From Lysobacterales bacterium (lineage in GTDB: Bacteria > Pseudomonadota > Gammaproteobacteria > Xanthomonadales > SZUA-5), in the NCBI GenBank assembly GCA_019187485.1, contig JABAQR010000005.1:1-64000 (forward strand): 64,000 nucleotides of DNA, written 5' to 3'. A program made the position numbers and the translations under genes. Of the stretch, positions 3,617 through 57,500 are shown piece after piece. Positions within the stretch are counted from its first letter, which is position 1. Each line of letters starts with the position of its first letter. The notes below the pieces were generated by a model that was not told where the DNA came from, ran no database searches, and saw only the letters and a program-made list of their open reading frames with translations.

Positions 3617-4360
3617 CTACATGCGCCCGCGCAACAGGCTGATGCCTGGCCGTGGTTGCAGGATCTGCCACTGCCGCAGTGGCGCCGCCGAGCGTGCGAT
3701 CAGGTCTTCCGGCAACATGCCGTAGTTCAGCAGCAACAGCGAGCGCCAGCCGCTCGCGGCGAGACGGCGGATCAGTTCGTCGTGGATGCCGCTGCGGCCG
3801 CCCTGCTGCGGGAAGGCGGATGCGCGTGGCATCTGCTCGTAGTAGCGCGCATCGCGACCGTCGGCGTAGACGTCGCCCGCATCGCCCCAGGGCGGATCGC
3901 CGAAGATCAGATCGGGGGGTGTTTCGTTGGCCGGCCAGCCGGACAGGTAATCGCTGTGCAGCAGATTCAGCTCGACGCCGTGTCGAAGGGCGTTTTCACG
4001 CGCGAGTTCGAGCGCCGGCGGATCGACATCCAGGCCCCACAGCTCCCAGCCGGGCGCGGCCAGCTTCAGCGTGATCGCCAGAGTGCCGGCGCCGACGCCG
4101 AACTCGAGCACGCGCAAAGGTCGTGTCAGCGTCGGCTGCAGGCGGCGCCCCTCGGCGAACGCCTGGTCGAGCAGCGGCCGGGACTCGGGATCGGTGATGA
4201 AGGCGCGGCGGTCCATCGCGAAGCGTCGACCCGCGTACTCGATGAAGCCGGCGACGTAGGCGGTCGGTTCACCGGACGCGACGCGCGCGCGCAGTTCAGC
4301 CAGACGCCGTGGGTCGTCCGCGGCGGCGGCGACCAGCCAGGACTCCTCATCGGCCCTCAT
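3617..4360 (-). CDS. HemK/PrmC-like class I methyltransferase, DPPW motif
   Basis: This 247-residue protein resembles the glutamine-N5 methyltransferases that modify release factors. The N-terminal part (GEPTAYVAGFIEYAGRRF) is similar to the PrmC helper segment. The SAM-binding motif is VLEFGVGAGTLAI, followed by the acidic motif GLDVDPPALELA. The catalytic NPPY of true PrmC is replaced here by GDPPWGD, so the substrate may differ from release-factor glutamine. It starts at the ATG at 4358-4360, which overlaps the stop of the SpoIIE phosphatase gene by four bases, so it is the last gene of that operon. A protein or small-molecule methyltransferase outside translation is possible. Confidence 0.75.
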   Translation of the reverse strand: MRADEESWLVAAAADDPRRLAELRARVASGEPTAYVAGFIEYAGRRFAMDRRAFITDPESRPLLDQAFAEGRRLQPTLTRPLRVLEFGVGAGTLAITLKLAAPGWELWGLDVDPPALELARENALRHGVELNLLHSDYLSGWPANETPPDLIFGDPPWGDAGDVYADGRDARYYEQMPRASAFPQQGGRSGIHDELIRRLAASGWRSLLLLNYGMLPEDLIARSAAPLRQWQILQPRPGISLLRGRM

Positions 4361-6018
4361 GCGGGCGGCGGCAGCACGCGCAGCGCCATCACCGTGATGT
4401 CGTCGGCCTGGAAATGGCCTTCGGCGAAGTGGTACACGCTCTGCATGCCCTCTTGCACCCATGCGGTGGCGCTGGATGCGCCTGCGCCGATGCGGGTCAG
4501 CTCGTTTTGCAGGCGCGCCTCGCCGTAGAAAGATTCGTCCGTGGCGATCGCGTCGGTGACGCCGTCGGTGTACAGGTACAGGGTGTCGCCCGGGAGCAAC
4601 TGCAACTGGTAACGCGGGTATTCGGCGCCGGGCATGATGCCCAGCGCGATGCCGCCCTTGAACTCCAGCAGGCGCGGGAGTTCGCCGGGACGGCACAGGA
4701 AGGGATGGTTGTGGCCGCCATCGGAAAACACCAGCCGGCCGGTGCGGACGTTGAGAATCCCGAGGAACAGGGTCACGAACTGGCACATCGCATTCTGGAT
4801 GTTCAGCAGTTCGTTGGTCTGGCGCAGGATTTCCTGCGGCTGGTCGATGTAGTCCGCGGTGGCGCGTGCGCGCAGGATCGAGATCACCACGGTCATGAAC
4901 AGTGCCGCCGGCATGCCCTTGTCGGAGACATCGCCGACCACCAGGCACAGGTGATCGTCGTCCAGGTAGTAGTAGTCGTAGAGGTCGCCGCCGGCTTCCT
5001 TGGCCGGCTTGACGTCGCCGTGCAGGTCCACCAGCAGGCGGCCGTCGTCCTTGTGCAGCGGTGTGAAGCCACGTGGGAGCATGGACAACTGGATGTCGCC
5101 GGCGATGCGCAACTCGTTGCGCAGGCGCTCCTTGGTTTCGGTGGTGGCGGTCAGCTCCTTGAGATAGGAGTTGAGGCGCGCCTCCATCGCGATGAAGGAA
5201 CTGGCGAGCTGCGCCAGCTCGTCGCGGCCCTGGTGCTCCATCGCCACGATCTCTTGCCGCAGCGGCAGGTCGGAGACCGGCTGGAAATCGGTGGCGGCGA
5301 GTTCGACGGTGTAATCGGACAGCCGGGTGATCTTGCGCGACACCCGCGACCCGATCCAGAAACTGAACAGGAAAACCACGAAGAAACTGGCGAAGCCGAT
5401 CAGGATCGATTTGCGCAGCGAGGCATCGAGCTGCGCCTGCAGCGCGCTGATGGTGATGTCGGCGCCGGCCACGTAGCGCGTCCCGGCCGCGGTGATTCCG
5501 GGCTTGAACAGGAAGTAGATGTGGCCCCACTGATCGTTGGACTCGCCGTAGCGCGGCTGGTTCTGCTCGAAGGCCTCGGACAGCAGCGGCTCCTCATATT
5601 CCTCCCAGTAGGCCGCGTAGTCCCCGCTCGCGCGCTCCTTCGCGGTGCCGTTGGACGAGGTCGTGTGAAACTTCTTGCCGTCGAAGTGGTAGCTGTAGAG
5701 GTACACCAGGCCGATGTCGTCGCAATAGCGGGACAGCCGATCGAGGACCTTCAGGTACTCGTCCGCCGGAATCGCGCTTGCCGCCTGCGCGCGGTCCAGA
5801 TAGCCCTCCGGCAGCATGTCCGGCAGCGCGCGTGCGGCCGCGGCGAGCTTCTGCTCGATGCCATCGATGATCGCGCGCTTCTCCACCAGGTAGTGGTTGG
5901 CGGCGAACATTGCGGTGCCCAGGATATTGAAAATCGTCAGGCCGAGGATGACCTTGAAACGCAGACCAAAACGGATGCGGCGTCGCGCGGTCTGGGCAGT
6001 GTCGTCGGTCGCGCGCAT
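4357..6018 (-). CDS. Membrane sensor with HAMP and SpoIIE/RsbU-type PP2C phosphatase domain
   Basis: The protein has 553 residues. A transmembrane helix (about 21-41) is followed by a periplasmic sensor region (about 45-203), a second helix (205-223), a HAMP-like linker (222-275) and a C-terminal SpoIIE phosphatase domain (about 310-550). The metal-binding motifs appear intact: EAGGDLYDYY (341-350), VVGDVSDKG (360-368), YTDGVTDA (483-490) and ADDITVM (538-544). Enzymes of this type remove phosphate from serine or threonine, usually on a STAS-domain antagonist in partner-switching pathways. No STAS protein or RsbW-like kinase is nearby, so the target is unknown. The gene starts three bases after the stop of the upstream sensor gene and overlaps the next gene by four. 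Confidence 0.9.
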   Translation of the reverse strand: MRATDDTAQTARRRIRFGLRFKVILGLTIFNILGTAMFAANHYLVEKRAIIDGIEQKLAAAARALPDMLPEGYLDRAQAASAIPADEYLKVLDRLSRYCDDIGLVYLYSYHFDGKKFHTTSSNGTAKERASGDYAAYWEEYEEPLLSEAFEQNQPRYGESNDQWGHIYFLFKPGITAAGTRYVAGADITISALQAQLDASLRKSILIGFASFFVVFLFSFWIGSRVSRKITRLSDYTVELAATDFQPVSDLPLRQEIVAMEHQGRDELAQLASSFIAMEARLNSYLKELTATTETKERLRNELRIAGDIQLSMLPRGFTPLHKDDGRLLVDLHGDVKPAKEAGGDLYDYYYLDDDHLCLVVGDVSDKGMPAALFMTVVISILRARATADYIDQPQEILRQTNELLNIQNAMCQFVTLFLGILNVRTGRLVFSDGGHNHPFLCRPGELPRLLEFKGGIALGIMPGAEYPRYQLQLLPGDTLYLYTDGVTDAIATDESFYGEARLQNELTRIGAGASSATAWVQEGMQSVYHFAEGHFQADDITVMALRVLPPPA

Positions 6019-6021
6019 GGC

Positions 6022-7371
6022 TCAGTGCCTGGAGGTTTGCAGATCGCAGATCACCAGCAGGCCGTCGTGGCGGGTGCCGAGCAGGCCGGACAGCTCCTCC
6101 GCGATCTGGTCCACCGGACGGTCCGGGAACTGGTTGGCGTAGGCCTGGGCGATGTGGTGGGCCTCCGGCGCGAGCGTGCTCAGCACTTCGCGGCGGTCGC
6201 CGGGCGACCAGGGTTGCGGTCTGCCGCGCGCCGGATCGAGCGTCCAGCCGGTCGGCGCCTGGCCGCTCGCCGGCACCAGGATCAGTTGCAGCGATTCGCA
6301 GGGGTGTACACGCAGCGCCTCCGGCCAGCTCGGGCCGTGTGGCCGCGCGGTCGCCACGCCGAGCAGGAACTCGCGCGCCGCGTCGGCGCGCACCAGGCGT
6401 GCGAGCAGGTCCGGATCGCCATCGGCTGCGCGGCAGCGGCCCACGCACAGGTACCAGCCTGCGCTGCCCTCGCGCCAGCCGCAGAAATCTTCGGGCGTCG
6501 GCCGACCAATGCGCCGCTGCGCGCACTGGACCTGGCCCAGGGTGGGCGGCAGCGGCTGTCCCAGTTGTGCGCGGTACGCGTTCGCGAGTTCCTCGTCACC
6601 AGGCAAGGGTTCGGCCTGGAAAAAGCGCCGCCGGGTCTGGTGCTTTTCGTCGGCGAGCAGGCTGGTCATGGTGAGCAGGGTACCACCGAGGTCGTTCAGC
6701 TCGCGGATACGCCCAGCCGGCCAATGCGAGAGATAGCGGCCGTGAGCGGCATCGCGGGCTGCCGACGTCAGCGCCGCCAGCTCACCGCGGGCGATGCGTG
6801 CGACCAGTTCGGTGGCGAGAATGCCGGCCAGCAGCAGCGCCAGCAGCAATCCGCCCAGGCGCCGCCGGAGCGCCAGCATTTCCGCTTGCAGCGATCGGTC
6901 GATCTCGGCGATGCCGATGACTGCGCGTACTCCACCGGCGGCGTCGTGCAGCGGCGCATAGCCGACGTTGAGATCGCCCTCGGACGGATCCCGGCTGTGC
7001 AGCTCCCAGGCCAGACCGCCCGCGCGCAATGTCGTCGCGACCGCGCCGAAGGGCGGAGCCGGCGGCGGCACGCCCTCGGCGTCGAACAGCGTGCGCTGCG
7101 TCCACTGGTTCCGACCGGGCTCGAACCAGGCGATGCTGACCGCCCCCAGTCGCCGGCTGTAGCGTTCCAGCTCCGCAGCGGGCGAGTCCGTGGCCTGCGG
7201 CGCGATCTGGTCCCAGAAGCCGGCGATGCTGGCGGCGGCGCCCTGCGCGCGCTCACGCAGGCCCCATTCGAGCTCGTTGCGCTCGGTGTACCAGACCAGC
7301 AGGCTGTTGATCAGACCGAGCCCCAGGAACAGCGGCAGGATCGCCAGGTAGTAGCGCAGGCGCAGGCTCAC
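6022..7371 (-). CDS. Two-helix membrane sensor with probable degenerate SpoIIE-like C-terminus
   Basis: A GTG start at 7369-7371 overlaps the upstream stop by four bases and gives 449 residues. Helices are at about 8-27 and 172-191, with a periplasmic domain between them and a HAMP-like stretch at 190-245. The C-terminal 200 residues match no family by plain reading. The order of elements (LRVHPCESLQLILVPASG, then WSPGDRREVL, then a final RHDGLLVICDL) resembles the end of a SpoIIE phosphatase whose metal-binding acidic residues have been lost. It may therefore be a pseudophosphatase partner of the intact enzyme encoded just downstream. Five cysteines in the cytoplasmic part (residues 283-358) are unusual for this cluster. 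Confidence 0.65.
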   Translation of the reverse strand: MSLRLRYYLAILPLFLGLGLINSLLVWYTERNELEWGLRERAQGAAASIAGFWDQIAPQATDSPAAELERYSRRLGAVSIAWFEPGRNQWTQRTLFDAEGVPPPAPPFGAVATTLRAGGLAWELHSRDPSEGDLNVGYAPLHDAAGGVRAVIGIAEIDRSLQAEMLALRRRLGGLLLALLLAGILATELVARIARGELAALTSAARDAAHGRYLSHWPAGRIRELNDLGGTLLTMTSLLADEKHQTRRRFFQAEPLPGDEELANAYRAQLGQPLPPTLGQVQCAQRRIGRPTPEDFCGWREGSAGWYLCVGRCRAADGDPDLLARLVRADAAREFLLGVATARPHGPSWPEALRVHPCESLQLILVPASGQAPTGWTLDPARGRPQPWSPGDRREVLSTLAPEAHHIAQAYANQFPDRPVDQIAEELSGLLGTRHDGLLVICDLQTSRH

Positions 7372-7772
7372 GACTGCGGCTCGCCGAGGTAGTCGACGCC
7401 GAGCAGCGGCATGCGGAAGAAGCCGACCAGCAGCGCCGGGCACTCGTTGATCACGGTGAAGAACTTGCCGCGCGGCAGCGACAGGGCGAGAAAACCCTCG
7501 GGCCCGGCCTTGATCGCGAACGGCGCCGCCTTGCCGGTGAGCAGGATGGTGGTACCGAGCACCGCCTGCATGCGCGTGCCCTTGGCGTCGACCGCATGGC
7601 CGTCGACGCGCACGTACAGGCGGGCGATCACACCGCCCTGCTCGCAGATCAGCGCACCGGGCTCGAAGCGGTGCACGCGCATGGCGGTGGCAATGGTGAG
7701 CAGCTCCTCCGGATTCAGTTCCGAGAACGGGTATACCGCGTGCAGCGCGAGCAGTTTTTCGGCGAGCGTCAT
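7368..7772 (-). CDS. Small cyclic-nucleotide-binding-like (Crp fold) protein
   Basis: The protein has 134 residues and consists only of a Crp-type beta-roll: FSELNPEELLTIATAM, RFEPGALICEQGGVIARLYV, then LGTTILLTGKAAPFAIKAG. It has no DNA-binding domain. The phosphate-binding cassette that in cAMP-binding members reads FGE...R.A appears as LGTTILLTGKAAPFAI, without the Glu and Arg that hold the cyclic nucleotide. Classical cAMP binding is therefore doubtful, and a protein-protein or other ligand role is possible. The ATG at 7770-7772 overlaps the upstream stop and the gene overlaps the next start by four bases, so it is probably translationally coupled on both sides. Confidence 0.75.
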   Translation of the reverse strand: MTLAEKLLALHAVYPFSELNPEELLTIATAMRVHRFEPGALICEQGGVIARLYVRVDGHAVDAKGTRMQAVLGTTILLTGKAAPFAIKAGPEGFLALSLPRGKFFTVINECPALLVGFFRMPLLGVDYLGEPQS

Positions 7773-9697
7773 CGTGCACCGGTCTCCGTGTCGGCGGCGC
7801 CCACCAGCGTCAGGCCATCGGCCCAAGCCAGTCGCTGGCCTGGCATCAGCCGTACCGTGGCCTGGTCGCCGCATCGCTGCGAGCGGGCACTGCCGTCGGC
7901 CTCGATCAGCAGCAACGTGAGTTCTTCGCGCGTGCGCACGCGCAGTTCCGAACGCGACGAATCCCAGCAAGCCACCGCCGTCACCATCGGCATGGTGCTC
8001 AGCAGCGCATCCTGCGCCGCCGCCGGCGCCAGCCGCTGGAGCAGGGTCCGTGCCAGCGACTGCACGTGCGCCTGCTGCGAGATCAGGCGCAAGGGATCGA
8101 GACCACCGGAGGCCAGGGTCCACAGCATCCCGATCTCGCCGTGCGCGCAGGCGGCATGCTCGGACGCGGGCCGCTCGCTCTGCATGCGCGGCGGCAGCGC
8201 GCCGGTAGCGGCGCCGACGAGGTCGGTCAAGGCGTTCTCGAGCGCGATCTGCTCGCGGCCGGAAGCGAGCGCCCGCTGGTAGCCGACCGACTGTCGCGCC
8301 TGGGCGGCCAGACGTGTGGACAGGGCATCCAGGCTTTGCGCCAACTGGCCGATCTCGTCGCCCGAACTCCAGGCCACGCGCGAGCCGTGGTAGCCGGCGG
8401 CGATCCGCAGCGCGGAATCCTTGATCTCGCGCAGCGGCCGGGTCAGCCCCTGGGAAACCCGCAGGGATACCGAGCCGGCCAGCAGCAGCAGGCCGGCGCC
8501 CACGAAGATCACCGAGAACAGCGCATAACGGGTCTTGTCGCGGATCACGCCGATGTCGACGTCGGCGCCGGCGATCGCGACCACGCGCCCGCCGTGATCG
8601 TAGATCGGCTCGCCGGCGACCTTGATCAGGCCCCATTCCTCCCATTCGCGGATGTCGGAGACGAAGCCCTGGCCTCGCGCCTGCGCCTGCGTGTAGTCGT
8701 TGATCGTGGCGACATCGGGAACGTCGTCGAGATAGCCCGGCGGCGAGTGGTCCTCGCCCAGCGAGCCGTCCATGATGTAGCGGATCTGATCGCCGCCCAG
8801 ATACACCAGGGTGTACAGAAAGGTCAGGCCGGCCAACTCGCGGGTGCGCCGATATGCGGGGACCAGACGGGCGAACCAGGGATCGCGTTCGCTGAACCAG
8901 CCCGGCGCAAAGTCCTCGGCGACCGTGCCCTCCTCGGGGTCGATGCGCAACAGCGACGAGCCGGCGGCATAGAGCGTGTCGCCGATGCAGGCGAGCGCTT
9001 GTACGCGCAGTCCCTCTGCCTGGAGCTTCACTCGTCGCAGCAGTTCGCCGTCGGCGGCGAATTCGAGCAGCGCACCGTCCTTGGCGGCGATGCCGAACAA
9101 GCGGCCGGATGCCGCCGCGGTCAGCGCCGAAACCTCCTCCGCCAGTCGCAGCTTGCCCGGCGGCCCGGTCAGCGTGGTCAGCTCGCGACCGCGCCGCAGC
9201 CACAGCGCGTCGGTGATCGCGAGCAACTGGTCGGCCGGCGTCGGCAGTGGATCGGGCGCAGAGAAGATGCGATCAGGATCGAGCCTTGTGTGCAGCGTCG
9301 TGCCGTCGGCAGAAAGCACTGCGAGGTGCCCGCTGGCCTGGTCGAAGGCGAGCGAGCGCGGCGCCTGCATCGGCGGCGTGGGCAGGGCCAGGGCGCCGCC
9401 GTCGCCAGGATCGATCGCCACCAGTTCCGCGCGACTGCCGTCCCAGCCCCACAACTGACCTGCGGGTCCGGGCAGCAGGTGCACGATTTCGCGCGGCTCC
9501 TGGTAGGCGGCATGACCGTCGCCATCGGTGAATTCGGCGGCACCGTTGCCCAGTGCGATGAGTTTCTGATCGAAACCGTGCAGGATGATGTCGTAGATCG
9601 AGCGATAAACCACCGCGCCCCAGATCGCGGTGGCGACCGCAAGCACCACCGTCAGCGACAGCATGATCAGCGTCTGGAAGTTGACGGTGAGCTTCAT
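7769..9697 (-). CDS. Membrane sensor: propeller-like/Cache-like periplasmic region, HAMP, degenerate SpoIIE-like domain
   Basis: The protein has 642 residues with helices at about 10-30 and 391-411. The 360-residue periplasmic part has repeated beta-rich segments (LAFDQASGHLAVLSADGTT, LLEFAADGELLRRV, LLRIDPEEGTV) that suggest a small propeller. A following segment (LTFLYTLVYLGGDQIRYIMDGS to AIAGADVDIG) resembles the sensor region of the neighbouring SpoIIE phosphatase (LVYLYSYHFDGKKF to YVAGADITIS). HAMP is at about 412-465. The C-terminus (about 485-640) keeps the shape of a SpoIIE domain (LRVRTREELTLLLIEADG, LMPGQRLAWADGLTLVG) but lacks the GGD and GDVSDKG metal motifs, so it is probably inactive. 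The start overlaps the transporter gene's stop by four bases. Confidence 0.75.
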   Translation of the reverse strand: MKLTVNFQTLIMLSLTVVLAVATAIWGAVVYRSIYDIILHGFDQKLIALGNGAAEFTDGDGHAAYQEPREIVHLLPGPAGQLWGWDGSRAELVAIDPGDGGALALPTPPMQAPRSLAFDQASGHLAVLSADGTTLHTRLDPDRIFSAPDPLPTPADQLLAITDALWLRRGRELTTLTGPPGKLRLAEEVSALTAAASGRLFGIAAKDGALLEFAADGELLRRVKLQAEGLRVQALACIGDTLYAAGSSLLRIDPEEGTVAEDFAPGWFSERDPWFARLVPAYRRTRELAGLTFLYTLVYLGGDQIRYIMDGSLGEDHSPPGYLDDVPDVATINDYTQAQARGQGFVSDIREWEEWGLIKVAGEPIYDHGGRVVAIAGADVDIGVIRDKTRYALFSVIFVGAGLLLLAGSVSLRVSQGLTRPLREIKDSALRIAAGYHGSRVAWSSGDEIGQLAQSLDALSTRLAAQARQSVGYQRALASGREQIALENALTDLVGAATGALPPRMQSERPASEHAACAHGEIGMLWTLASGGLDPLRLISQQAHVQSLARTLLQRLAPAAAQDALLSTMPMVTAVACWDSSRSELRVRTREELTLLLIEADGSARSQRCGDQATVRLMPGQRLAWADGLTLVGAADTETGAR

Positions 9698-12600
9698 TCG
9701 ATCGCCGCGATCGTCTTGAACTGGTACAGACTGACGCCCATCGCCGGGAAGATCTCGATCGCGCGCATCACCGCCAGACCCGGCAGCACCAGGGCGCTGC
9801 AACCCTCTGAAACCACACGTTCCCGGCGACGCTTGTCGCCCATCAGCACGCGCTGGCCGAAGGTGGCGCCGGCACGCGCGGTCCAGTCGCCGCTGCGGCG
9901 GGATGCGACCACGCTGCCCTCGGTGATGACGTACAGCTCCTGCGTCGGCGCGGTCTCGTCGTAGACCAGCTCCCCCGGCTCCCAGCGGCGCTCGAGCGCG
10001 TGCCCGGCGAGATAGTCGAGCGCGAGGATGCGTGCGTCCGAGAAGAACTCGGCGCGCACCAGCGAAGCAACGCGGTCCACCGGGTGCGCGGCGAAGGCGA
10101 AATTCACGCCGGTATCGACGAAGCGCGGCAGCAGCGCCACCAGCCACTCGTTGACGCGGCCGGACTCGTTCTGTTCGAGGCGCGCGCGCAGCAGTTCCAG
10201 GCCGCCGGGAAGCTCGTGCTCGCGGAAGGCGGTCAGGCCGGCAGATGCCTCCAGGGCGATGCTGCTGCCGGCGGCACGACGCAGCACCGTCTCCACCGTC
10301 AGCGATTCGCTCGGCGAGGAAGCGAGGCCACTGCCCGGCACGGTCGCCTCGATCAGTCCACAGATGCGCTGGAAGATGCCGCGCTCGCAGCTCTGCTGGA
10401 TGGTTTCGATCGCGTTCGCGCGGTCGCGCGGATTGGCGAAGGCGAGCGAGGCGCGGATCAGGTCGAAGTCCGGCAGGCGCCCGGTCAGGCTGAGCAGCTC
10501 GAGCACGAACTCGAGTCCCTCGGCGGCGGCATCGCGGTAGAAGCGCGTCAGCACCGTCTGGCCGACGCCGCGACCGCCGTCGGCGGCGAGCGCGCGGTGC
10601 GCCAGCACTGCCTGGTGCGCACGCTTGAGTTCGTCGTCGATCAGCTCCTCGACGATCAGCAGCAACTGCGGCATCGCCAGCCGGCTCAGTGCGCGCACCG
10701 CCACCGAGCGCGAATGGAAGGGAGCGGAAACGTTGCGCAGCAGGTGGATCACCGCCGGAATCGCCTTCAGACCCATGCCGGCGATGGTCGCCTCGAGCCG
10801 ACGGCTCTCGGCCGAGGAGAAGTGCTCGGCCGCCCACAGCAGCGGCTGGATCGCCGCGGTGTCGCCGATGCGCGCGACGATCGCCAGCACCAGGTCGCGC
10901 TCCTCGGTGGAGCCATCGCGCACCAGCGGCAGCACCTGCGGCAGCAGCGCGGAAGAATCCGGAGAGGCGAGTTTGCGCAGCGAACGCAAGGCCTCCAGCC
11001 GCAGCTCCTGGTCGCGGTCGGCCAGGAAGCGCAGCAGCTCGCTGGCATGGCGTGAATACCGGGAATCGCCGATCGCACGGATCGCGTAGCGGCGCGACTG
11101 CGCGTCGCCGTCGAGCAGCGCGCGGATCTCGTCCAGCGCCTGCGCCACCTCGTCGATGCGGCTGCCGTTCCAGCGTGCGACCGCGATCGCGGCCTGGTGC
11201 GCGGGGTGGCCCGAGTGGCGCCAGTCCTGCAGCCGACGCATCGGGAAGGCGCCGGAAGAGGTGAACTCGTCGAGCACTTCGGGCTCGTTCGGGCCGTGGT
11301 CGCTCTCCAGCCACAGCAGAGTTTCGGCCAGCGCTTCGGTGTCGCCCTGCTGGATCAGCGCGGAGATCGCCGGGCGCAAACGGTCGGCTTCGTCGGCGCT
11401 GGCGGTTGAGAGGAAATTCAGCAACGCTGCGCGCGCCGCCGAATCCTGCAGCCGCCACAGCAGCTCCACCGCGAGCAGCTGTTGCGGACGTGAACCGGAA
11501 AAGGCGGTGTTGCGCAACAGGGTGAAGTCGGCCGCGCCGAGCTGGGCGCGCCAGACGCTCTCGGGGTTGGCGAAATCCAACCAGTCGCTGCGCAGGTTGA
11601 CGGCCAGCGCGCGCACGTAATTCTGGCGTATGAAGCCAGCGACGGCGAGCGCGCCGCAGGCGGCGAGCAGGCCCGCCAGCGCCAGGTTGTCGGGGTCGAT
11701 GCGGCTGGCCGAGTAGTACAGAAACAGACCGACGGTGGCGCTCGCGGCGGGTTCGGCCATCGCCTCGATGAAGGTGCGCAACTGCCGTTTCACGCCGGCC
11801 GGCAGCGCGTTGTACAACAGATTGATGTTGTTGAACTCGATCGCGACGAACAGCGTCTGATAGGCGTAGAAAGCGAACAACGCGGCGGCGAAGCCGGTGT
11901 TGAGATAGAAGAACACGAAGGCACCGAGGTAGGCGAAAGGCACCACCAGCGCGGTGCTGCCGACGCCGAGTCGACCGACGATGCGGTTGAAGAAGAACAG
12001 GTTGATGATCAGTGTCAGCAGGCCCGCCAGGGCGTACAGGCCGCCGAGCAGGGCAGCAAGTTCGTCGGCGCTGCGCCCGCGCGCGAACTGCCCCAGCGCC
12101 AAGTACTCGAGACCGCCGGTCAACGCCACCATCGCGAAACAGATCGAGGCAACCGCAAAGGCGAAACGCGAATTCGCGAAGGTGTGTCCGATGAAGCGCA
12201 GCAGACCGAACAGCGACAGCGACTCGTCCGACTGCGCCTCATCCGCGGCGATCGCGCGGAAGCGCTTGAGGGCGATCACCAGCACCGGAAAGGTGGCGAT
12301 GGCGACCACCGACCAGACCAGGAAGAGCTTGGCCGCCGGCACCACCCCAGTCAGTCCGCTGACGAGGCCGCCGCCGAGCATCGAGCCGGCCGAACTGCCG
12401 GCGGCGATCAGGCCGTACAGGCGCTTGCCGTCGAGGATGCTGAAATAGTCGTCGGCGAAGTTCCAGAACAGGGTGTAGAGGGCGATGAACCACAGGCCCG
12501 CATAGAACTTGGTCGCGAACAGGAACCAGCGTTCGTGGCCGAAGCTGTCGCCGCCGAAGCCGAAGAACAGGCCACCGACCACCAGTGTCACCAACGTCAA

Positions 12601-12855
12601 CTGGAATAGCGCGCGCACCCCGAGGCGCTCCACCAGCAGCGAATACAACGGTGCGTAGACCAGCATCACCACCGGCATGAAAATGAACACCACCGGCAGC
12701 ATCTCGATGCCCAGGCCCGCCAGGAACAGCGAGTCGGCCGCGACCGTGCCGATGGCCACGCCGGCCTGCAGCAGGCCGGCCAGCAAGGCGAACAGCAGCA
12801 CCTTGCGGCCTTCGTCGGGCAACACCTGGAACAGGCTGCGGAACTGCGAGTGCAC
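9694..12855 (-). CDS. ATP/ADP-translocase-like (NTT/MFS) transporter fused to HEAT repeats and cyclic-nucleotide-binding-like domain
   Basis: The protein has 1053 residues. Residues about 18-410 form around twelve membrane helices of the nucleotide-transporter/MFS type, beginning FQVLPDEGRKVLLFALLAGLLQ, which resembles the TLC ATP/ADP carrier family. Residues about 430-900 are helical HEAT-type repeats (for example SRRYAIRAIGDSRYSRHASELL, then ELRLEALRSLRKLA). The end (about 955-1050) is a Crp-like beta-roll (WEPGELVYDETAPTQELYVI, FGQRVLMGDKRRRERV) with FGQ where cAMP binders have FGE. The GTG at 12853-12855, two bases after the upstream stop, is the best start. An ATG at 12954 would overlap the previous gene by 97 bases with unrelated residues. 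The cargo is unknown. Confidence 0.8.
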   Translation of the reverse strand: MHSQFRSLFQVLPDEGRKVLLFALLAGLLQAGVAIGTVAADSLFLAGLGIEMLPVVFIFMPVVMLVYAPLYSLLVERLGVRALFQLTLVTLVVGGLFFGFGGDSFGHERWFLFATKFYAGLWFIALYTLFWNFADDYFSILDGKRLYGLIAAGSSAGSMLGGGLVSGLTGVVPAAKLFLVWSVVAIATFPVLVIALKRFRAIAADEAQSDESLSLFGLLRFIGHTFANSRFAFAVASICFAMVALTGGLEYLALGQFARGRSADELAALLGGLYALAGLLTLIINLFFFNRIVGRLGVGSTALVVPFAYLGAFVFFYLNTGFAAALFAFYAYQTLFVAIEFNNINLLYNALPAGVKRQLRTFIEAMAEPAASATVGLFLYYSASRIDPDNLALAGLLAACGALAVAGFIRQNYVRALAVNLRSDWLDFANPESVWRAQLGAADFTLLRNTAFSGSRPQQLLAVELLWRLQDSAARAALLNFLSTASADEADRLRPAISALIQQGDTEALAETLLWLESDHGPNEPEVLDEFTSSGAFPMRRLQDWRHSGHPAHQAAIAVARWNGSRIDEVAQALDEIRALLDGDAQSRRYAIRAIGDSRYSRHASELLRFLADRDQELRLEALRSLRKLASPDSSALLPQVLPLVRDGSTEERDLVLAIVARIGDTAAIQPLLWAAEHFSSAESRRLEATIAGMGLKAIPAVIHLLRNVSAPFHSRSVAVRALSRLAMPQLLLIVEELIDDELKRAHQAVLAHRALAADGGRGVGQTVLTRFYRDAAAEGLEFVLELLSLTGRLPDFDLIRASLAFANPRDRANAIETIQQSCERGIFQRICGLIEATVPGSGLASSPSESLTVETVLRRAAGSSIALEASAGLTAFREHELPGGLELLRARLEQNESGRVNEWLVALLPRFVDTGVNFAFAAHPVDRVASLVRAEFFSDARILALDYLAGHALERRWEPGELVYDETAPTQELYVITEGSVVASRRSGDWTARAGATFGQRVLMGDKRRRERVVSEGCSALVLPGLAVMRAIEIFPAMGVSLYQFKTIAAIE

Positions 12856-12857
12856 GG

Positions 12858-14810
12858 TCAGCCGCCGCGCGTCGGCGGGCGCCGCATCAGCAGCACATGG
12901 CTGACGTGGCGGTGGGCGCCGGCGCGGTACCCAGGATGTGCGGACTCGACCCATTCCCGGCGCGCCGATTCGATCGGCTCGAATCCGGCCACCACCAGTT
13001 GTTGCTCGGCTTTCGCCGGCGCGACGAAGCGATAGAAATAGGCGCTCTGGTAGAGAAAGCTGTCCTCACTCAGCTTGCGCATGTCCAGACCCGCGACGCC
13101 ATCGTCCAGGCCCGGAATATTGCACAGCAGGAGGCCGCCGGGCTTCAGGACGCGGTACAGCTCGGCGAGCACGCTCTCGGCGTTCGGCAGGGTTTCATAG
13201 ACGTCGAGCAGCAAGATCGCGTCGAAGTGCGCCGCCGGGTAGCCGCTCGCGGAGAGATCGCCCTGGCGCAGCAGCGTGCGCCCACGCAGTGCCTGCGGAA
13301 TCTTGTCCAGCGCGTGCCGGGAAGCATCGATCGCGTGCACCTCGTCGGCGCCGCAGTCGAGCAGGAAGGGCAGGTTGCGGCCTTCGCCCACGCCGGCGTC
13401 GAGCACTCGTGCGGGCGCGCGCAGCGCGGTGCGCAGGGCCGCACCGAAGTCTCCCAGGAAGGGCAGTGGATCCTCGCCCCAGACGAGCTCGCCGGTGGCG
13501 GCGTAGAGCCGGTCCCAGGCAAGCTTGTTGGCATCCGCGAGCTGCGCGACGTCGTGTTCGGCGATGCGCATGGATTGCGCCAGCAGATGTTCGCTCAGCT
13601 CGGTGCGCAGGCAGTGCGCGCTCGCCATCGACGCCCCGTAGCCGCCGGCGTTGAGGAAGCACAGCACATCGCCCTCAACCAGCGGCGGCAGGCCGATGTC
13701 CTCCGCGAACAGGTCCAGCGCCTCGTTGAGGTTGCCAGCGATGCTGACAGTCTGTGCGGCGCCGGGCCGCCGGCGCGCCGGTGCCGGCACCAGCGGCAAC
13801 TGGTAGAAGGCGGGTTCCGGGTGCACGTTGAAGCCGGCATCGACGCCGACGAATATCCGTCCACCCTTGCTTTCGACCTGGGTGACCTCGGTCAGCAGCA
13901 CGCCGGCGTCCTTGACCAGGTAATCGCCGGGCTCGATGCTGAGGGTCAGCTCGCGGGCGCCGAAGTGCTTGCGCACCAGCGCCGCCCAGGCCGACAGGTC
14001 GAGTTCGGTCTCGCCGGCGACCAGCGGGATGCCGAGTCCGCCGCCGAGGTTCAGTTCGGTGATGCCGGGCGCCATGTCCAGGAATTCGCCGATGCGCTCG
14101 TACACGCGCTCGAGCGCCGGCAGGTGCCGGTCGAGCAGACCGCAGCCCGCATGACAGTGCAGGCCGGCGAGTTCAAGACCGAGGTCGGCAGCGAGCGCGT
14201 GTGCCTCCAGATAGCGGTCCCGGTAGATCCCGAACTTGCTCGGCCGGCTGCCGCCGGCATAGCGGACGTGATCGTTGTAGCCGACCGCGCTCGCCGGGTT
14301 GATGCGCAGTCCGAGCCGGCGTCCGGGCGATGCCGCGGCAAATCGTCGCAGCGCACTCAGCGAGTCCGCGTTGATCCACAGTTGCGGCCAGCCCGCGAGC
14401 GCCGCGTGGTCGGCGCGCGACAGGCAGCCGGCGGTGAAGGAGATGTGCGCTTCCTCGAAGCCGCAGGCGAGCGCGTGACGCACCTCGCCAGGCGAGGCCG
14501 CGTCGATGCCGAGCCCGAGCTCGCGCAGGTGCGCGAGCAGCGGCGCATGGCGGTTGCTCTTCATCGCGTAGAGCAGGCGCACCGGGCGGCCGATCTCGGC
14601 CAGCGCCGAACGCATCCGCGCCACGTTCTGGCTGACCCGCGCCGCGCAATAGGCGTAGGCGGGCGTACCGAACTCGCGCGCGAGCTCGGACACACGCCGG
14701 CCACCGAACCAGAGTTCGCCTTCGGCGTCGTAGTGGCGGTCGGTTCGCTCCCACCATTCGGCAACGATGGCGCCGCGACGGGCGTGGCCGTGTGCGTCTG
14801 CTTTGCCCAT
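12858..14810 (-). CDS. Fusion of PLP-dependent (DAP/ornithine-type) decarboxylase-like domain and SAM methyltransferase
   Basis: The protein has 650 residues from the ATG at 14808-14810, which has a good ribosome binding site (GAGGAG). Residues about 35-420 form a fold-type III PLP enzyme: the PLP lysine is in YAMKSN (Lys84), HCHAGCGLLD and LNLGGGLGIP are present, and a GGYGASMASAH motif lies near 389-399. Two signatures of true diaminopimelate decarboxylases are altered: EPGR is EPGDYLVKDAG, and the catalytic CES.D block reads GNLNEALD with no cysteine. Residues about 440-640 form a class I methyltransferase (VLDAGVGEGRNLPFL, LYRVLKPGGLLLCNIPG). The pair probably makes or modifies an amine or amino-acid product. 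The stop is two bases before the transporter start, and the gene heads the operon. Confidence 0.8.
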   Translation of the reverse strand: MGKADAHGHARRGAIVAEWWERTDRHYDAEGELWFGGRRVSELAREFGTPAYAYCAARVSQNVARMRSALAEIGRPVRLLYAMKSNRHAPLLAHLRELGLGIDAASPGEVRHALACGFEEAHISFTAGCLSRADHAALAGWPQLWINADSLSALRRFAAASPGRRLGLRINPASAVGYNDHVRYAGGSRPSKFGIYRDRYLEAHALAADLGLELAGLHCHAGCGLLDRHLPALERVYERIGEFLDMAPGITELNLGGGLGIPLVAGETELDLSAWAALVRKHFGARELTLSIEPGDYLVKDAGVLLTEVTQVESKGGRIFVGVDAGFNVHPEPAFYQLPLVPAPARRRPGAAQTVSIAGNLNEALDLFAEDIGLPPLVEGDVLCFLNAGGYGASMASAHCLRTELSEHLLAQSMRIAEHDVAQLADANKLAWDRLYAATGELVWGEDPLPFLGDFGAALRTALRAPARVLDAGVGEGRNLPFLLDCGADEVHAIDASRHALDKIPQALRGRTLLRQGDLSASGYPAAHFDAILLLDVYETLPNAESVLAELYRVLKPGGLLLCNIPGLDDGVAGLDMRKLSEDSFLYQSAYFYRFVAPAKAEQQLVVAGFEPIESARREWVESAHPGYRAGAHRHVSHVLLMRRPPTRGG

Positions 14811-15014: not shown

Positions 15015-15341
15015 TCAATGCCCGCCCTTGTCGCGCTTCCAGCCGCGGTGGCGGATGTCGAGGTAGAGGCTGTAGAGCGCGGTGAAGGTCGGGAACAGGT
15101 TCTGCAGCACGCCGACCGAATCCTGCTTGGCGGAGAACGAGAAGTAGGACAAGGTCATCAGGCTGCCGACCACGCTCATGTACCAGAACACGCGCGGGAT
15201 CACCGGCTTGCCGGCGCGCTTGCTGGCGATGAACTGCACCACCCAGCGCATGCCGAACATCAGCGCCCCGGTGTAACCGATGATCTTCCACCAGGTGACG
15301 TGCAGGCCGGTCCATTCCAGCCACAGCAATTCTTCGTTCAC
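15015..15341 (-). CDS. LAB_N-domain membrane protein (lipid A biosynthesis N-terminal domain)
   Basis: This 108-residue protein has three hydrophobic helices and the features of the LAB_N family: VTWWKIIGYTGALMFGMRW and QFIASKRAGKPVIPRVFWY near the front, then LSYFSFSAKQDSVGVLQNL. Members are found as the N-terminal part of LpxB in some species or as separate proteins beside ArnC-like glycosyltransferases. Here the gene follows such a glycosyltransferase by 54 bases on the same strand, so the two probably form one transcript. The exact biochemical role of the family is not settled. Confidence 0.85.
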   Translation of the reverse strand: MNEELLWLEWTGLHVTWWKIIGYTGALMFGMRWVVQFIASKRAGKPVIPRVFWYMSVVGSLMTLSYFSFSAKQDSVGVLQNLFPTFTALYSLYLDIRHRGWKRDKGGH

Positions 15342-15395: not shown

Positions 15396-16139
15396 CTACA
15401 ACTCATCAACTTGGGTCAGCCGGCTGCGCGCGATCAGCCAGGCCACGCCGCGCAGGTCCTTGAGGCCGACCCAGGCGCGCTGCAGGTTGCCGTACTTGCT
15501 GCGTCCGGCGGTGCGCGGCCGATGGCCCACCGGGACCGACACCGAGCGCCAGCCGGCGCGCTTGACGAGTGCCGGCAGGTAGCGGTGCATGTGGTCGAAC
15601 CAGGGCAGGTCGAGGAAGGTCGCGCGCTCGAACAGCTTCAGGCCGCAGCCGGTGTCCGGGGTCTCGTCCTGCAGCAGGCGCGCACGGATCGCATTGGCGA
15701 TGCGCGAGGCCCAGCGCTTGCTGCCGCTGTCGCGCCGCTGCACGCGCCAGCCGGCATACAGCTTCACCGTCGGATCGCCGGCGTCGCGTGCCGCGAGCAG
15801 GCGCGGGATGTCGGCCGGATCGTTCTGCCCGTCGCCGTCGAGGGTGGCGATCCACGGCCCGCGCGCGGCCTTGACGCCGGTGCGGATTGCCAGGCTCTGG
15901 CCGCTCTGGCGCCGGTGGTGCAGCACCCGCAAGCGCGGGTGCGCGGCCTGGAGGGCGCGCAGTTGCGCGAGCGTGTCGTCGCCACTGCAGTCGTCGACGA
16001 ACAGCGCCTCCCACTCGATGCCGAGCGGGCCCAGCGCCGCCTCGATCTCGGCCAGCAGCGCGGCCACATTGTCGCGCTCGTTGTGCGCCGGGACGACGAC
16101 GGAGAGTGCCGGCGGGGCGCCGGTGGCCAGCACGGGCAT
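15396..16139 (-). CDS. Family 2 glycosyltransferase (dolichyl/undecaprenyl-phosphate sugar transferase type)
   Basis: The protein has 247 residues. The GT-A fold is clear: LSVVVPAHNERDNVAALLAE at the front, ALFVDDCSGDDT, then GPWIATLDGDGQNDPADIP with the acidic metal-binding residues, and a conserved TPDTGCGLKLFERATF segment. It is similar to DPM1 and ArnC, which load a sugar onto a polyprenyl phosphate on the cytoplasmic face, but it lacks C-terminal membrane helices. The start is the ATG at 16137-16139. Upstream is a 183-base divergent gap shared with the TPR gene; downstream is the LAB_N gene. The lipid-sugar product is not identifiable. Confidence 0.88.
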   Translation of the reverse strand: MPVLATGAPPALSVVVPAHNERDNVAALLAEIEAALGPLGIEWEALFVDDCSGDDTLAQLRALQAAHPRLRVLHHRRQSGQSLAIRTGVKAARGPWIATLDGDGQNDPADIPRLLAARDAGDPTVKLYAGWRVQRRDSGSKRWASRIANAIRARLLQDETPDTGCGLKLFERATFLDLPWFDHMHRYLPALVKRAGWRSVSVPVGHRPRTAGRSKYGNLQRAWVGLKDLRGVAWLIARSRLTQVDEL

Positions 16140-54555: not shown

Positions 54556-57500
54556 CTACTTCACCTCGATCGTCCCCGCCGGCCCGCCCTGGGCGTAGAT
54601 GCCGCGTTCGTACATCGATTCCGCATAGGCCGGTGGGATCACGAAGCTGCCGGGGTTGCTCGGCTTGACCTTGTAGCGGAACTCGGCGATCTGCGGGCCG
54701 GCGCTGGCGTAGACCACCACGCGGTCCTCGCGCTGCTCCACATGCTCGGTCCACAGCGATGAGCCCGGCAGCGCCAGCGTCGGCACCGGCGGCGCGGACT
54801 CGCCGTCCTCGCTGTCTTCCTCGTCGACCTCGCCCGAGTCGGCCGGCGCCGGTGGCATCTGCACCACCGGCTCGAAGCCGCCCGGCAGCAAATCGACCAC
54901 CGCGATCGAGTCGATCGCGTCGGGCCCGAGCGCGCGCAGACGCAGGCGCACGGTGATTTCCTGGCCGAGCGCGGCCGCCGTGAGCGGCTTGCCATCCTCG
55001 CCGAGGTAGTCGCGCAGCACCTCGATGCCCTGGCCCTGCACCGCCTTCGGCGCGGCCTGGTCGTAGCCGGTCTGCGCCAGCACGTACCAGGCCGGCGTCG
55101 CCTCCGGCGGGGTGACCGCCAGCATCTGGTCGCTCGCGCTGAAGGCGGCGCGCCGCAGCACGCCGAAGGCCTCGCCGATCTGGCGCTCGACGCCGTCGCC
55201 GCCGAGCGCGGCGAGCTGCGGCAGGCCGACGGCCTGCTGCGCGCTGGTGTAGGCGTCCAGCGCGAGCACCGTCAGCGCCGAATACAGCGTGCTGTACTGC
55301 TCGTGCTGCAGCGGCCACAGCAGGTTCTCGATGGCGCGCACGCGCACGCGCTCGGCCTCCTGCGGGAAGTGCTTGTGCGCCAGGTAGACCACCCAGGCGG
55401 TGTCGATGCCGGCGTCGTGGTAGTAGCGGAAGCCCTGGAACTTCGGCGCCTGCGCGGCGCCGACGCGCGCGAGGCCGCCCTGTGCGAGTTCCTTCGCCGG
55501 CCTGGCCTGCTGCAGCAACTGGTAGCTCGCCGCCAGCAGCATGCCGATGCTGTCCTCCTTCCACGCATCCGGGTAGTCGCGCTTGAGCTGCTCGTGCACC
55601 GCAGACAGCAGGTGGGTGGCGGTCTGGCCCTGGCGGATCAGCAGGTAGGTGGCGAGCGCGCGCGCCCGCAGCTCGTGCACCTGCGTCAGCGCGGCGTCGG
55701 CGGCCATGCCGGCGAGGTAGCGGTTGACCGAGTTCAGCAAATCGTCCGGCACCGGCACGCCGCGTTCGCGCGCCTCGACCAGGTAGAAGCCCGCCCAGGC
55801 GCTGATGAAGGGATCGACGTCCGGCGTCGCCAGCCACAGGCCGATGCCGCCTTCGCCGTTCTGGCGTGCACGCAGCACGTCGATGAGGTCGAGCGGGCTG
55901 CCGCTGCCGCGGATCTCGCCGAACTCCGGACGCGCGCGATAGACCAGCGCCGGCACCGCCTGGCTCAGCAACTGCTCGGTGCACAAATGCGGGTAGTCCT
56001 GCAGGTAGGCGACCAGGCCGTCGGCGGCGACGAAGGGCGAGGTCGAGGCCGACAGCAGCCGCTGCGAGCGTTCCGGATACATCGTGCGCAGCTCCTTCAG
56101 CTCGACGCGCCGGTCGGCGCGGCCGAGGCGCAGATCGCTGCGGCCGACGATCGCCGGGCGCAGCGAGAGCTCGATGCGCCGGCGCACGCTGCGTTCGCCC
56201 GAGGACGCGATGATCGTCACCGGCGCCGCGCCGAGGCCTTCGCCGGCGCGCAGGCGGATGCTGATCTTGCCCTCCTGGCCGGGCTTCAGCGAGAGCGGTC
56301 TGGGGCCGTCTCCGACCAGCGCCAGGGTCGCCGGCAGCTCCACCTGCACCGCCACGTCCATGGCGCTGCCATCGGTGCCCTCGGCGGTGTTCGCCACGCC
56401 CACCGGCAGCTCGAACTCGTCGCCCGGCGCGACGTGCGTCGGCACCGTCGGCGTCAGCACGAAGTCGCCGCGCACCAGCGCCTTGCCGGTCTCGATGCCG
56501 ATGCGCTCGCTCGACACCGCCACCGCCATCACCCGCAACTGGCCGTTGAAGTGGTCCGGCATGCGGAAGCGGAAGCTGTGCTCGCCGTCGACATCGGTCA
56601 GCCCCGACCACCACACCGCCGGCTTCTCGCTCTTGCGCTTGAAGGGATTCAGGTGCTTGCCGAGCTCGCCCTCGCCGTCGCCGCCGGGCGCGGCGGAAGC
56701 GACCAGTCGCGAGAACTCCGGCAGGATCAGGTCGAGGATCTGGCTGGTCTCGACATCCAGCATCTTCTTGCGGAAGAAGTGGTCGAGCGGATCGGCGAGC
56801 TGGTAGCGCGCCACCTGCAGGATGCCCTCGTCGATCGCGAAGGCGACCACGCGCGCGCGGCCCTGCGTCTTCAGCGCCAGCGTGATCTCGGCGCCGGGCT
56901 TGCTGACCGCCGGCACGGTGAATTCGAGCGGCAGCGTGCGCCGCCCGCGGTCGACGCTGAAGGGCGCCACCGCGTAGGACAGCGGGCTCATGTAGATCTC
57001 TTCCGAACCCGGGTCGCGGATGAACTGCACGTTCACGTAGCCCGAGCCCTCGAAGTCGTCCGGGATGCGGATCTTCTGCACCGAGGAGGTCGTGGTCGCG
57101 CGGAACCAGGTGTGCGCGTAGACGCGATCGCGCTCGATGGTGATCAGGCCCGAGCCGGTGTACGGCGCGCGGATGCCGATCTCGATCTCGCCGCCGGCCG
57201 GGTAGTCGGGCTGCGACAGGCTGAGCGCGAGTTCGGCGTTGCGCTCCAGCGAGCGGGTGACGTTGGCGTCGCCGGCGACCACGTAGTAGAGCTTGTTGAC
57301 CACGGTGTCGCGCGCGTCGCGGATCTCGACGAAATAGTCGCCGGGCTCGTCGGTCTTCAGCACCAGCGGCTGCTCGCCGGCCTGCGCCGGCAAGGGCGTG
57401 TCCGAAACCGTGCGCTTGCGCTCCTGCGAGACGTAGCGGTACAGCCCGGAATCCTGCCGGGTCAGGATCGAGACGTAATAGCGCGCGATCAGCACCACGC

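Follow-up and report, generated by a model that had tools for sequence, protein, structure and literature searches.

A seven-gene operon joining an NTT-like protein and membrane receptors to a SpoIIE phosphatase, proposed as the membrane half of a partner-switching system

The window, a 64,000-nt stretch of Lysobacterales DNA, carries seven minus-strand genes at positions 3617-14810. They are listed here in order of transcription, each followed by the features located within it.

12858-14810, minus strand: PLP-enzyme/methyltransferase fusion, the first gene in transcription order
13122-13403, minus strand: Methyltransf_11 domain of the fusion (E 1.2e-16)
9694-12855, minus strand: NTT-HEAT-CNB protein of 1053 aa, start codon GTG
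9697-10068, minus strand: CNB (Crp-like) domain of the NTT protein, with cassette Arg1010 kept and the cassette Glu replaced by Gln1001
7769-9697, minus strand: sensor 1, the third gene
8930-9496, minus strand: beta-propeller insert of sensor 1 (structure match 3mbr, Z 15.7)
7368-7772, minus strand: free CNB protein, the fourth gene
6022-7371, minus strand: sensor 2, start codon GTG
6025-6537, minus strand: PP2C-fold domain of sensor 2, predicted from a model, with the metal-binding aspartates missing
4357-6018, minus strand: SpoIIE phosphatase, the sixth gene
3617-4360, minus strand: HemK-like methyltransferase, the seventh gene

From 5′ to 3′ along the transcript, the coordinates give a gap of 2 bases, three overlaps of 4 bases, a gap of 3 bases and a final overlap of 4 bases. 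The tight packing described in an earlier note on this DNA stands, but the 4-base overlaps, which were said to join five genes, number four and involve six. Scans for promoters and terminators revealed no pattern standing out at either end of the operon. We also considered the upstream genes as operon members (a lipid A biosynthesis N-terminal domain at 15015-15341 and a GT2 protein at 15396-16139) and rejected them; they have no match beside the operon in the Lysobacterales genomes G002 and G005.

Absence of the gene order from every relative had been named beforehand as a refutation of the claim of a single unit; a neighbourhood search in other genomes recovered the order in relatives. The same seven genes occur in the same order in the Lysobacterales MAGs G002 and G005, in Lysobacter sp. 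CAU 1642 and in two Opitutales (Verrucomicrobiota), Opitutaceae EW11 and G456, which with the source genome makes six genomes from two phyla. Most junctions in the relatives' loci are also 4-base overlaps. Because both the seven-gene order and the overlaps recur, the arrangement is more than chance, and the seven genes form a conserved unit, as the earlier note had proposed. The operon is rare within Lysobacterales (4 of 398 genomes), and the unit has spread horizontally. The core NTT–sensor 1–CNB–sensor 2 is also found on a plasmid of Sphingomonas paeninsulae YZ-8, where the phosphatase, NTT protein, sensors, CNB protein, STAS protein, kinase, PLP enzyme and cyclase-like protein all lie within 11 kb and a SET-domain protein replaces the HemK-like methyltransferase. 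We note that this copy comes from a named strain and a complete plasmid record.

The sixth gene encodes a membrane HAMP-SpoIIE (PP2C) protein (SpoIIE domain E 5e-44). Its metal-binding Asp set is intact, with D345, D348, D363, D485, D539 and D540 invariant in all seven sequences compared, which bears out the earlier description of an apparently active phosphatase. The SiaA model match reaches 50.2 bits, below its cutoff of 700. The SpoIIE protein would be the sole catalytic member among the three receptors of the operon.

Sensor 1 comprises a TM segment, an extracytoplasmic propeller and Cache-like region, a second TM segment, a HAMP domain (E 5e-9) and a small C-terminal alpha/beta domain. 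Its Cache-TM-HAMP portion shares homology with the SpoIIE protein at E 1e-11 to 1e-13. The propeller insert is missing from the orthologues of EW11, G456 and Sphingomonas, and in G456 sensor 1 is fused to the CNB protein. Neither fold comparison nor profile comparison supported a PP2C remnant at the C-terminus of sensor 1. Sensor 2 consists of a CitA/DcuS-like Cache domain, which is predicted to be extracytoplasmic and matches 8biy (Z 11.1), followed by a TM segment, a HAMP-like linker and the predicted pseudo-PP2C domain. The model of this C-terminal domain resembles the RsbU-RsbW protein Rv1364c (Z 12.0), SiaA (Z 11.1) and SpoIIE (Z 10.3), and its metal aspartates are missing from the alignment as judged by eye. 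Profile comparison detected nothing between full-length sensor 2 and the SpoIIE protein, or between the C-termini of either sensor and the phosphatase domain; the PP2C fold of sensor 2 is seen in the model only. Sensor 2 is thus a predicted pseudophosphatase. The three membrane sensors of the earlier note, one of them bearing SpoIIE, are present; what had not been foreseen is that sensors 1 and 2 share ancestry or fold with parts of the phosphatase, yet are predicted not to be phosphatases themselves.

The 1053-aa protein combines an NTT-like membrane domain, HEAT repeats and the C-terminal CNB domain. The TLC (NTT, PF03219) model gives it 17.3 bits, under the cutoff of 21, so "NTT-like" is the correct wording, as had been used; the other domain claims also hold, with cNMP_binding at 29.5 bits (cutoff 27.5) and HEAT_2 above its cutoff. 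Major 2017 (PMC5381601) describes the NTT-HEAT(-cNBD) architecture and a nearby free cNBD gene, treats these proteins as functionally uncharacterised, and proposes that cNBD fusions and adjacent free cNBD genes tune NTT transport. Proteins of this kind are found in cyanobacteria, chlamydiae and oomycetes as well as in many bacteria that live freely. Such a proposal would favour reading the operon as a nucleotide exchange unit, with the NTT-HEAT protein as a genuine ATP/ADP-type translocase gated by CNB domains and the phosphatase as an accessory. The cassette Arg of the NTT-CNB domain, kept in Lysobacterales and EW11, fits this reading, but the subthreshold TLC score does not, nor does the state of the cassettes. 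In the window and CAU 1642 the NTT-CNB Glu is Gln, the phosphate-binding cassette is not preserved in G619 or G401, and the free CNB-fold protein, which has no Pfam match and is 53-78% identical across Lysobacterales and EW11, lacks both cassette residues (Glu and Arg) in all relatives. A nucleotide pump alone would also leave the two extra receptors unexplained, and we consider this reading very unlikely. On the same residues, binding of cyclic nucleotides by the Crp-like domains is doubtful. The absent cassettes likewise weaken a scheme in which all CNB domains act as receptors of a cyclase product.

In the first gene, a PLP fold-III enzyme resembling DAP decarboxylase (residues ~27-411) is fused to a SAM methyltransferase (residues ~460-600). 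Across 9/9 relatives the enzyme has EPGD (Asp296) where DAP decarboxylase has EPGR, and GN-I/L-NEALD, in which Asn362 takes the place of the catalytic Cys (CESGD). It scores 234 bits on the LysA model TIGR01048 (cutoff 297.9). An ordinary decarboxylase is not plausible from these residues, and the earlier "decarboxylase" label is weakened. The HemK-like protein is not PrmC; it carries GDPPW instead of NPPY and reaches 85.8 bits on the PrmC model (cutoff 199). This protein might modify the receptors in a methylation-based adaptation comparable to CheR in chemotaxis. A protein-methylase-like methyltransferase is present in all seven-gene loci and the Sphingomonas locus has its SET-domain substitute, but the DPPW motif equally fits small-molecule or nucleic-acid methyltransferases, and we regard adaptation by methylation as improbable.

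The enzymes also raise the possibility of a biosynthetic and export cassette: a small molecule would be built by the PLP enzyme and methyltransferases and carried by the NTT-like protein, with the sensors only regulating the cassette. Consistent with this, the cassette abuts large NRPS/PKS clusters (PPTase, AT, AMP ligase, thioesterase) in the Opitutales genomes G619, G711 and G469, and the methyltransferase domain, fused to the PLP enzyme in the window, is encoded separately in G619 and in G711 is joined to the HemK-like protein, suggesting that the enzymes act together. However, no NRPS condensation domain above cutoff is present in G000, G002, G005, EW11 or G456, which weakens a biosynthetic cluster as the sole explanation, and G1308 has NTT-sensor 1-CNB-sensor 2-SpoIIE with no enzyme matches within the stretch examined. 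We hold this account to be possible at rather long odds.

The relatives contribute three further genes, whose products are a STAS antagonist, a kinase of the RsbW type and a protein resembling class III cyclases. In G002 and G005 the STAS gene adjoins the operon end directly and convergently; EW11 has a pair of STAS genes upstream, and 17 bp separate the end of its RsbW-type kinase gene from the operon. A HATPase_c_2 kinase accompanies the phosphatase in EW11 and Sphingomonas and is fused to it in G101; in G101 and G106, REC-SpoIIE-kinase, STAS and cyclase-like genes are consecutive. Within the order, six of the 398 genomes carry the cyclase-like gene, among them 4/4 operon genomes (hypergeometric P 1.5e-8, kinship ignored). 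The cyclase-like family has no Pfam match, and its PDB matches are weak, class III cyclases accounting for most of them. Among the class III positions checked (two metal Asp, purine Lys/Asp, transition-state Asn/Arg and a Lys), 6/7 are kept, and the usual catalytic Asn is Asp in 7/7 sequences. The source genome itself has its STAS/cyclase-like pair on contig C38 and its best kinase candidate on C4, both unlinked to the operon; for this genome, the case for linkage comes from the relatives. Neither the phosphatase nor the cyclase-like gene is present throughout, since EW11 has no cyclase-like gene at the search threshold and in several Opitutales cassettes SpoIIE was not found within the stretch examined. 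The set of co-occurring components is found in three bacterial groups.

Proteins of the two kinds found here, HATPase_c_2 kinases and conserved-Ser STAS proteins, usually serve as anti-sigma and anti-anti-sigma factors. The STAS protein may thus sequester an anti-sigma kinase, with transcription rather than a cyclase as the output, and EW11, with kinase and STAS but no cyclase-like gene, would suit this reading. Against it, the STAS gene is adjacent to the cyclase-like gene or one kinase gene away in 6/6 Lysobacterales genomes that hold the latter, and no sigma-factor gene was noticed beside the pair in these six genomes. We judge a sigma-factor switch unlikely.

We favour, with a probability of roughly 0.6, the interpretation that the operon is the membrane half of a partner-switching system with STAS, kinase and cyclase output and a logic like that of SiaABCD, control of the cyclase being proposed by analogy. 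This interpretation is supported by the seven-gene order, the adjacency of STAS and kinase genes, the co-occurrence of the cyclase-like gene, the consecutive genes of G101 and G106, the Sphingomonas locus, the SpoIIE aspartates and the sensor 2 fold, and further by the sensor 1-CNB fusion in G456 and the SiaABCD precedent. The earlier claim that a single unit couples an NTT-like protein with membrane sensors and an apparently active SpoIIE phosphatase is supported, while the output arm outside the operon was not anticipated.

From gene content and order, conservation, co-occurrence, the active-site residues kept or missing and the predicted sensor 2 fold, we infer an assembly, a phosphorylation cycle, cyclase control, a ligand and a direction of signalling. 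Sensors 1 and 2, the SpoIIE protein, the NTT-HEAT-CNB protein and the free CNB protein would be co-produced and probably form one membrane assembly, in which the Cache receptors and the NTT-HEAT protein would set phosphatase output; the predicted dead PP2C-fold domain of sensor 2 could regulate the SpoIIE protein through hetero-assembly. The phosphatase would dephosphorylate the conserved Ser of the STAS protein, opposed by the RsbW/SpoIIAB-type kinase, and the STAS protein would control the cyclase-like protein as SiaC controls SiaD. The PLP enzyme and methyltransferases may act on the ligand, by producing or altering it, or else on the receptors, by modifying them. As the earlier note suggested, a transported or modified metabolite may control phosphatase output. 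More tentatively, the operon could represent a new class of transmembrane signalling in bacteria: the NTT-HEAT protein would be a transceptor, its ligand state read by a hetero-assembly of one live and one or two dead phosphatase-type receptors. The output would be a class-III-type cyclase gated by the STAS protein, and the PLP enzyme and methyltransferases would form a dedicated pathway that provides the ligand or tunes it.

Because the system links one NTT-HEAT(-cNBD) branch with particular partners (phosphatase, kinase, STAS protein, cyclase-like protein), a receptor or transceptor role becomes testable, the first such role for this poorly understood transporter-like family. Two further points of interest are a predicted pseudophosphatase receptor whose gene lies beside that of its live relative, and a PLP enzyme distinct from ordinary decarboxylases.

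Literature searches on pseudophosphatase PP2C receptors and on class III cyclase partner switches yielded no account of this gene set. It shares the one-chain architecture and nearby free cNBD gene with the NTT-HEAT-cNBD proteins of Major 2017, but the passages on those proteins mention no neighbouring genes for sensors, phosphatase, STAS protein or PLP enzyme. The PLP enzyme has the fold, PLP lysine and pyridoxal-binding motifs of diaminopimelate decarboxylase, BtrK and DokD but differs in its EPGD motif and Asn for Cys, and sensor 2 resembles CitA/DcuS in its predicted extracytoplasmic domain but has a predicted PP2C-like output domain in place of a histidine kinase. With RsbU/RsbV/RsbW (SpoIIE/SpoIIAA/SpoIIAB) it has in common a PPM phosphatase, a conserved-Ser STAS protein and a HATPase_c_2 kinase; it differs in having two receptors apparently without an active site, a transporter-like partner and no sigma factor noticed adjacent. 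In SiaABCD of Pseudomonas aeruginosa, the switch protein SiaC controls the cyclase SiaD (PMC7278518, PMC7647112), and here too a membrane HAMP-PP2C phosphatase, a kinase and a small, putatively phosphorylated switch protein are encoded, together with a cyclase-like protein. The kinase here is of the HATPase_c_2 type, however, the switch is a STAS protein and the cyclase-like protein has class III-type motifs whereas SiaD is a GGDEF protein. Further components are the NTT-HEAT and CNB proteins, the two apparently non-catalytic receptors, the PLP enzyme and the methyltransferases. Lacking a GGDEF target and a SiaA-model match above cutoff, the system is not a SiaABCD member, but it may work like one.

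The contig that carries the window (C19; 70,938 bases, the window being positions 1-64000) belongs to an assembly of 3.83 Mb. All seven genes reported in the earlier note are present at the locus in the stated order and strand:

3617-14810, minus strand, in transcription order: PLP enzyme/methyltransferase fusion, NTT-HEAT-CNB protein, sensor 1, free CNB protein, sensor 2, SpoIIE phosphatase, HemK-like protein.

The junctions are as tight as had been claimed (gap of 2 bases, overlaps of 4, 4 and 4, gap of 3, overlap of 4), although we counted four 4-base overlaps rather than five. Pfam supports the assigned domains (SpoIIE phosphatase, HAMP, HEAT, C-terminal cNMP-binding, PLP fold-III and methyltransferases); the NTT (TLC) match of the NTT-HEAT protein scores under the Pfam cutoff. 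Elsewhere in the window, a very long minus-strand ORF (54556-60369; 1937 aa) has a hydrophobic stretch at its N-terminus.

The gene neighborhood recurs in other genomes, as the earlier note had proposed to check. We found the identical seven-gene order in two Lysobacterales genomes, G002 (same genus as the window) and G005 (different genus, same family), in Lysobacter sp. CAU 1642, in the verrucomicrobial Opitutaceae bacterium EW11 and in the Opitutales genome G456, with 4-base overlaps again at most junctions in relatives. In G456, the NTT protein lacks the CNB domain, and sensor 1 and the CNB protein form a single chain (L066, 8738-10581); its sensor 2 is just 170 aa, without the PP2C-like domain. 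Next to the operon in G002 and G005 we did not see the lipid A and glycosyltransferase genes that flank it in the window. The unit is rare, with NTT orthologs (E below 1e-60) in 4/398 genomes of the order and, among 321 genomes drawn from the class, in the window's own only. In a tree of NTT sequences, the four from Lysobacterales group as a single clade (96/98); EW11 is closest to them by path, and verrucomicrobial sequences make up the deeper branches. This tree and the patchy distribution point to horizontal transfer of the unit, the direction of which we infer.

The SpoIIE protein is probably active as a phosphatase, since its six active-site aspartates are invariant in 7/7 sequences. Sensor 1 and the SpoIIE protein have homologous Cache-TM-HAMP regions (E 8e-12 and 1e-13); a propeller inserted in the Lysobacterales forms of sensor 1 is absent from EW11, G456 and the Sphingomonas form described below. 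In a model of sensor 2 (mean pLDDT 78.7), the outer domain matches CitA (Z 11.1) and the C-terminus matches Rv1364c RsbU-RsbW (12.0), SiaA (11.1) and SpoIIE (10.3). As the phosphatase aspartates are missing from this PP2C-type fold in the alignment, judged by eye, sensor 2 is a predicted pseudophosphatase. Cyclic-nucleotide binding by the CNB proteins is doubtful, because the free protein has no cNMP cassette in any relative and the NTT-fused domain, which keeps the cassette Arg, carries Gln in place of the Glu in the window. The PLP enzyme keeps its PLP lysine, but EPGD for EPGR and Asn for the catalytic Cys, in 9/9 sequences, rule out an ordinary diaminopimelate decarboxylase. The HemK-like protein is not PrmC, given its GDPPW motif and a PrmC model score of 85.8 bits, where 199 is required.

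STAS proteins are typical substrates of SpoIIE-type phosphatases (PMC11418112). A STAS gene convergent to the operon directly adjoins its end in G002 and G005, and a gene with class III cyclase motifs adjoins the STAS gene; in CAU 1642, a HATPase_c_2 kinase lies between the two. The window's genome encodes a cyclase-like/STAS pair on contig C38 and a kinase related to that of CAU 1642 on contig C4. Upstream of its operon, EW11 has two STAS genes, and a HATPase_c_2 kinase gene stops 17 bases short of the PLP gene. Interspersed with these STAS genes are isoamylase-type and GlcNAc-2-epimerase-type genes (L029, 2861-7169), which hints at a connection with glycogen or polysaccharide.

The cyclase-like protein keeps six of what we take to be the seven class III positions, with Asn replaced by Asp; its PDB matches are weak and mostly to class III cyclases. 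It occurs in 6/398 genomes of the order, namely the four operon genomes, G101 and G106, a co-occurrence with a chance of 1.5e-8 by random draw if genomes are taken as unrelated. G101 and G106, from another Lysobacterales family, carry a compact operon (L073 and L074) of a REC-SpoIIE-HATPase_c_2 fusion, STAS and cyclase-like genes, with no NTT cassette in the stretch read. We regard this operon as the proposed switch reduced to its essentials.

Searching plasmids at the protein level returned one record, a complete plasmid of Sphingomonas paeninsulae YZ-8, with this locus:

Cyclase-like, SpoIIE (opposite strand), NTT-HEAT, sensor 1, CNB, sensor 2, STAS (opposite strand), HATPase_c_2 kinase, SET-domain methyltransferase, PLP enzyme.

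Its cyclase-like protein, annotated as hypothetical, shares 41% identity with the counterpart from the window's genome across 208 residues (E 1e-49); its sensor 2 was detected by profile only (4.6e-17). The locus is an independent check: we had predicted the component set by comparing Lysobacterales genomes before it turned up in another class. Beyond it lie genes for a hybrid histidine kinase and a REC-GGDEF diguanylate cyclase (L089, 22623-26446), which may or may not belong to the locus.

The core of NTT then sensor 1 also occurs in six Opitutales genomes (G619, G711, G401, G475, G445 and G469), mostly with CNB and sensor 2, and, contig permitting, is accompanied by the PLP enzyme, HemK-like protein and methyltransferase; the stretches read gave no SpoIIE match. 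The otherwise free CNB domain forms a fusion with a GAF domain in G401 (L068, 14166-15068). In the window, the methyltransferase and the PLP enzyme make up one chain; in G711 the fusion partner is the HemK-like protein, and in G619 the methyltransferase stands alone. This varying partnership suggests, by the gene-fusion argument, that the three enzymes act together. The cassette adjoins large NRPS/PKS genes in G619, G711 and G469, possibly natural-product clusters of no known type with their own sensor set. These clusters carry PPTase, acyltransferase, AMP ligase and thioesterase genes (L067/L077/L078, L069/L080 and L072/L075, respectively). Another genome, G1308, has NTT, sensor 1, CNB, sensor 2 and SpoIIE together, with no match to the enzyme genes in the stretch read; its NTT ortholog (L086, 11846-15151) contains one in-frame TAG within a match, which may reflect either sequencing error or decay.

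In our proposal, the receptors and NTT-HEAT protein would assemble in the membrane and together set the activity of SpoIIE and hence the phosphorylation state of the STAS protein, which in turn would control the cyclase-like protein. The PLP enzyme and methyltransferases may make or tune the signal, a presumed ligand. NTT-HEAT and NTT-HEAT-cNBD fusions, with free cNBD genes nearby, are already described, without a function (PMC5381601). We found no description of the present gene set in an open-access library, and we consider the system a new form of partner switching; there is a real chance that it represents a new kind of transceptor. The closest system in logic is SiaABCD, in which the membrane phosphatase SiaA and the kinase SiaB govern how far SiaC is phosphorylated, and dephosphorylated SiaC activates the cyclase SiaD (PMC7278518, PMC7647112). 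The system here is not SiaABCD itself, because its cyclase-like protein is of a different, class-III-like type and its phosphatase falls short of the SiaA model.
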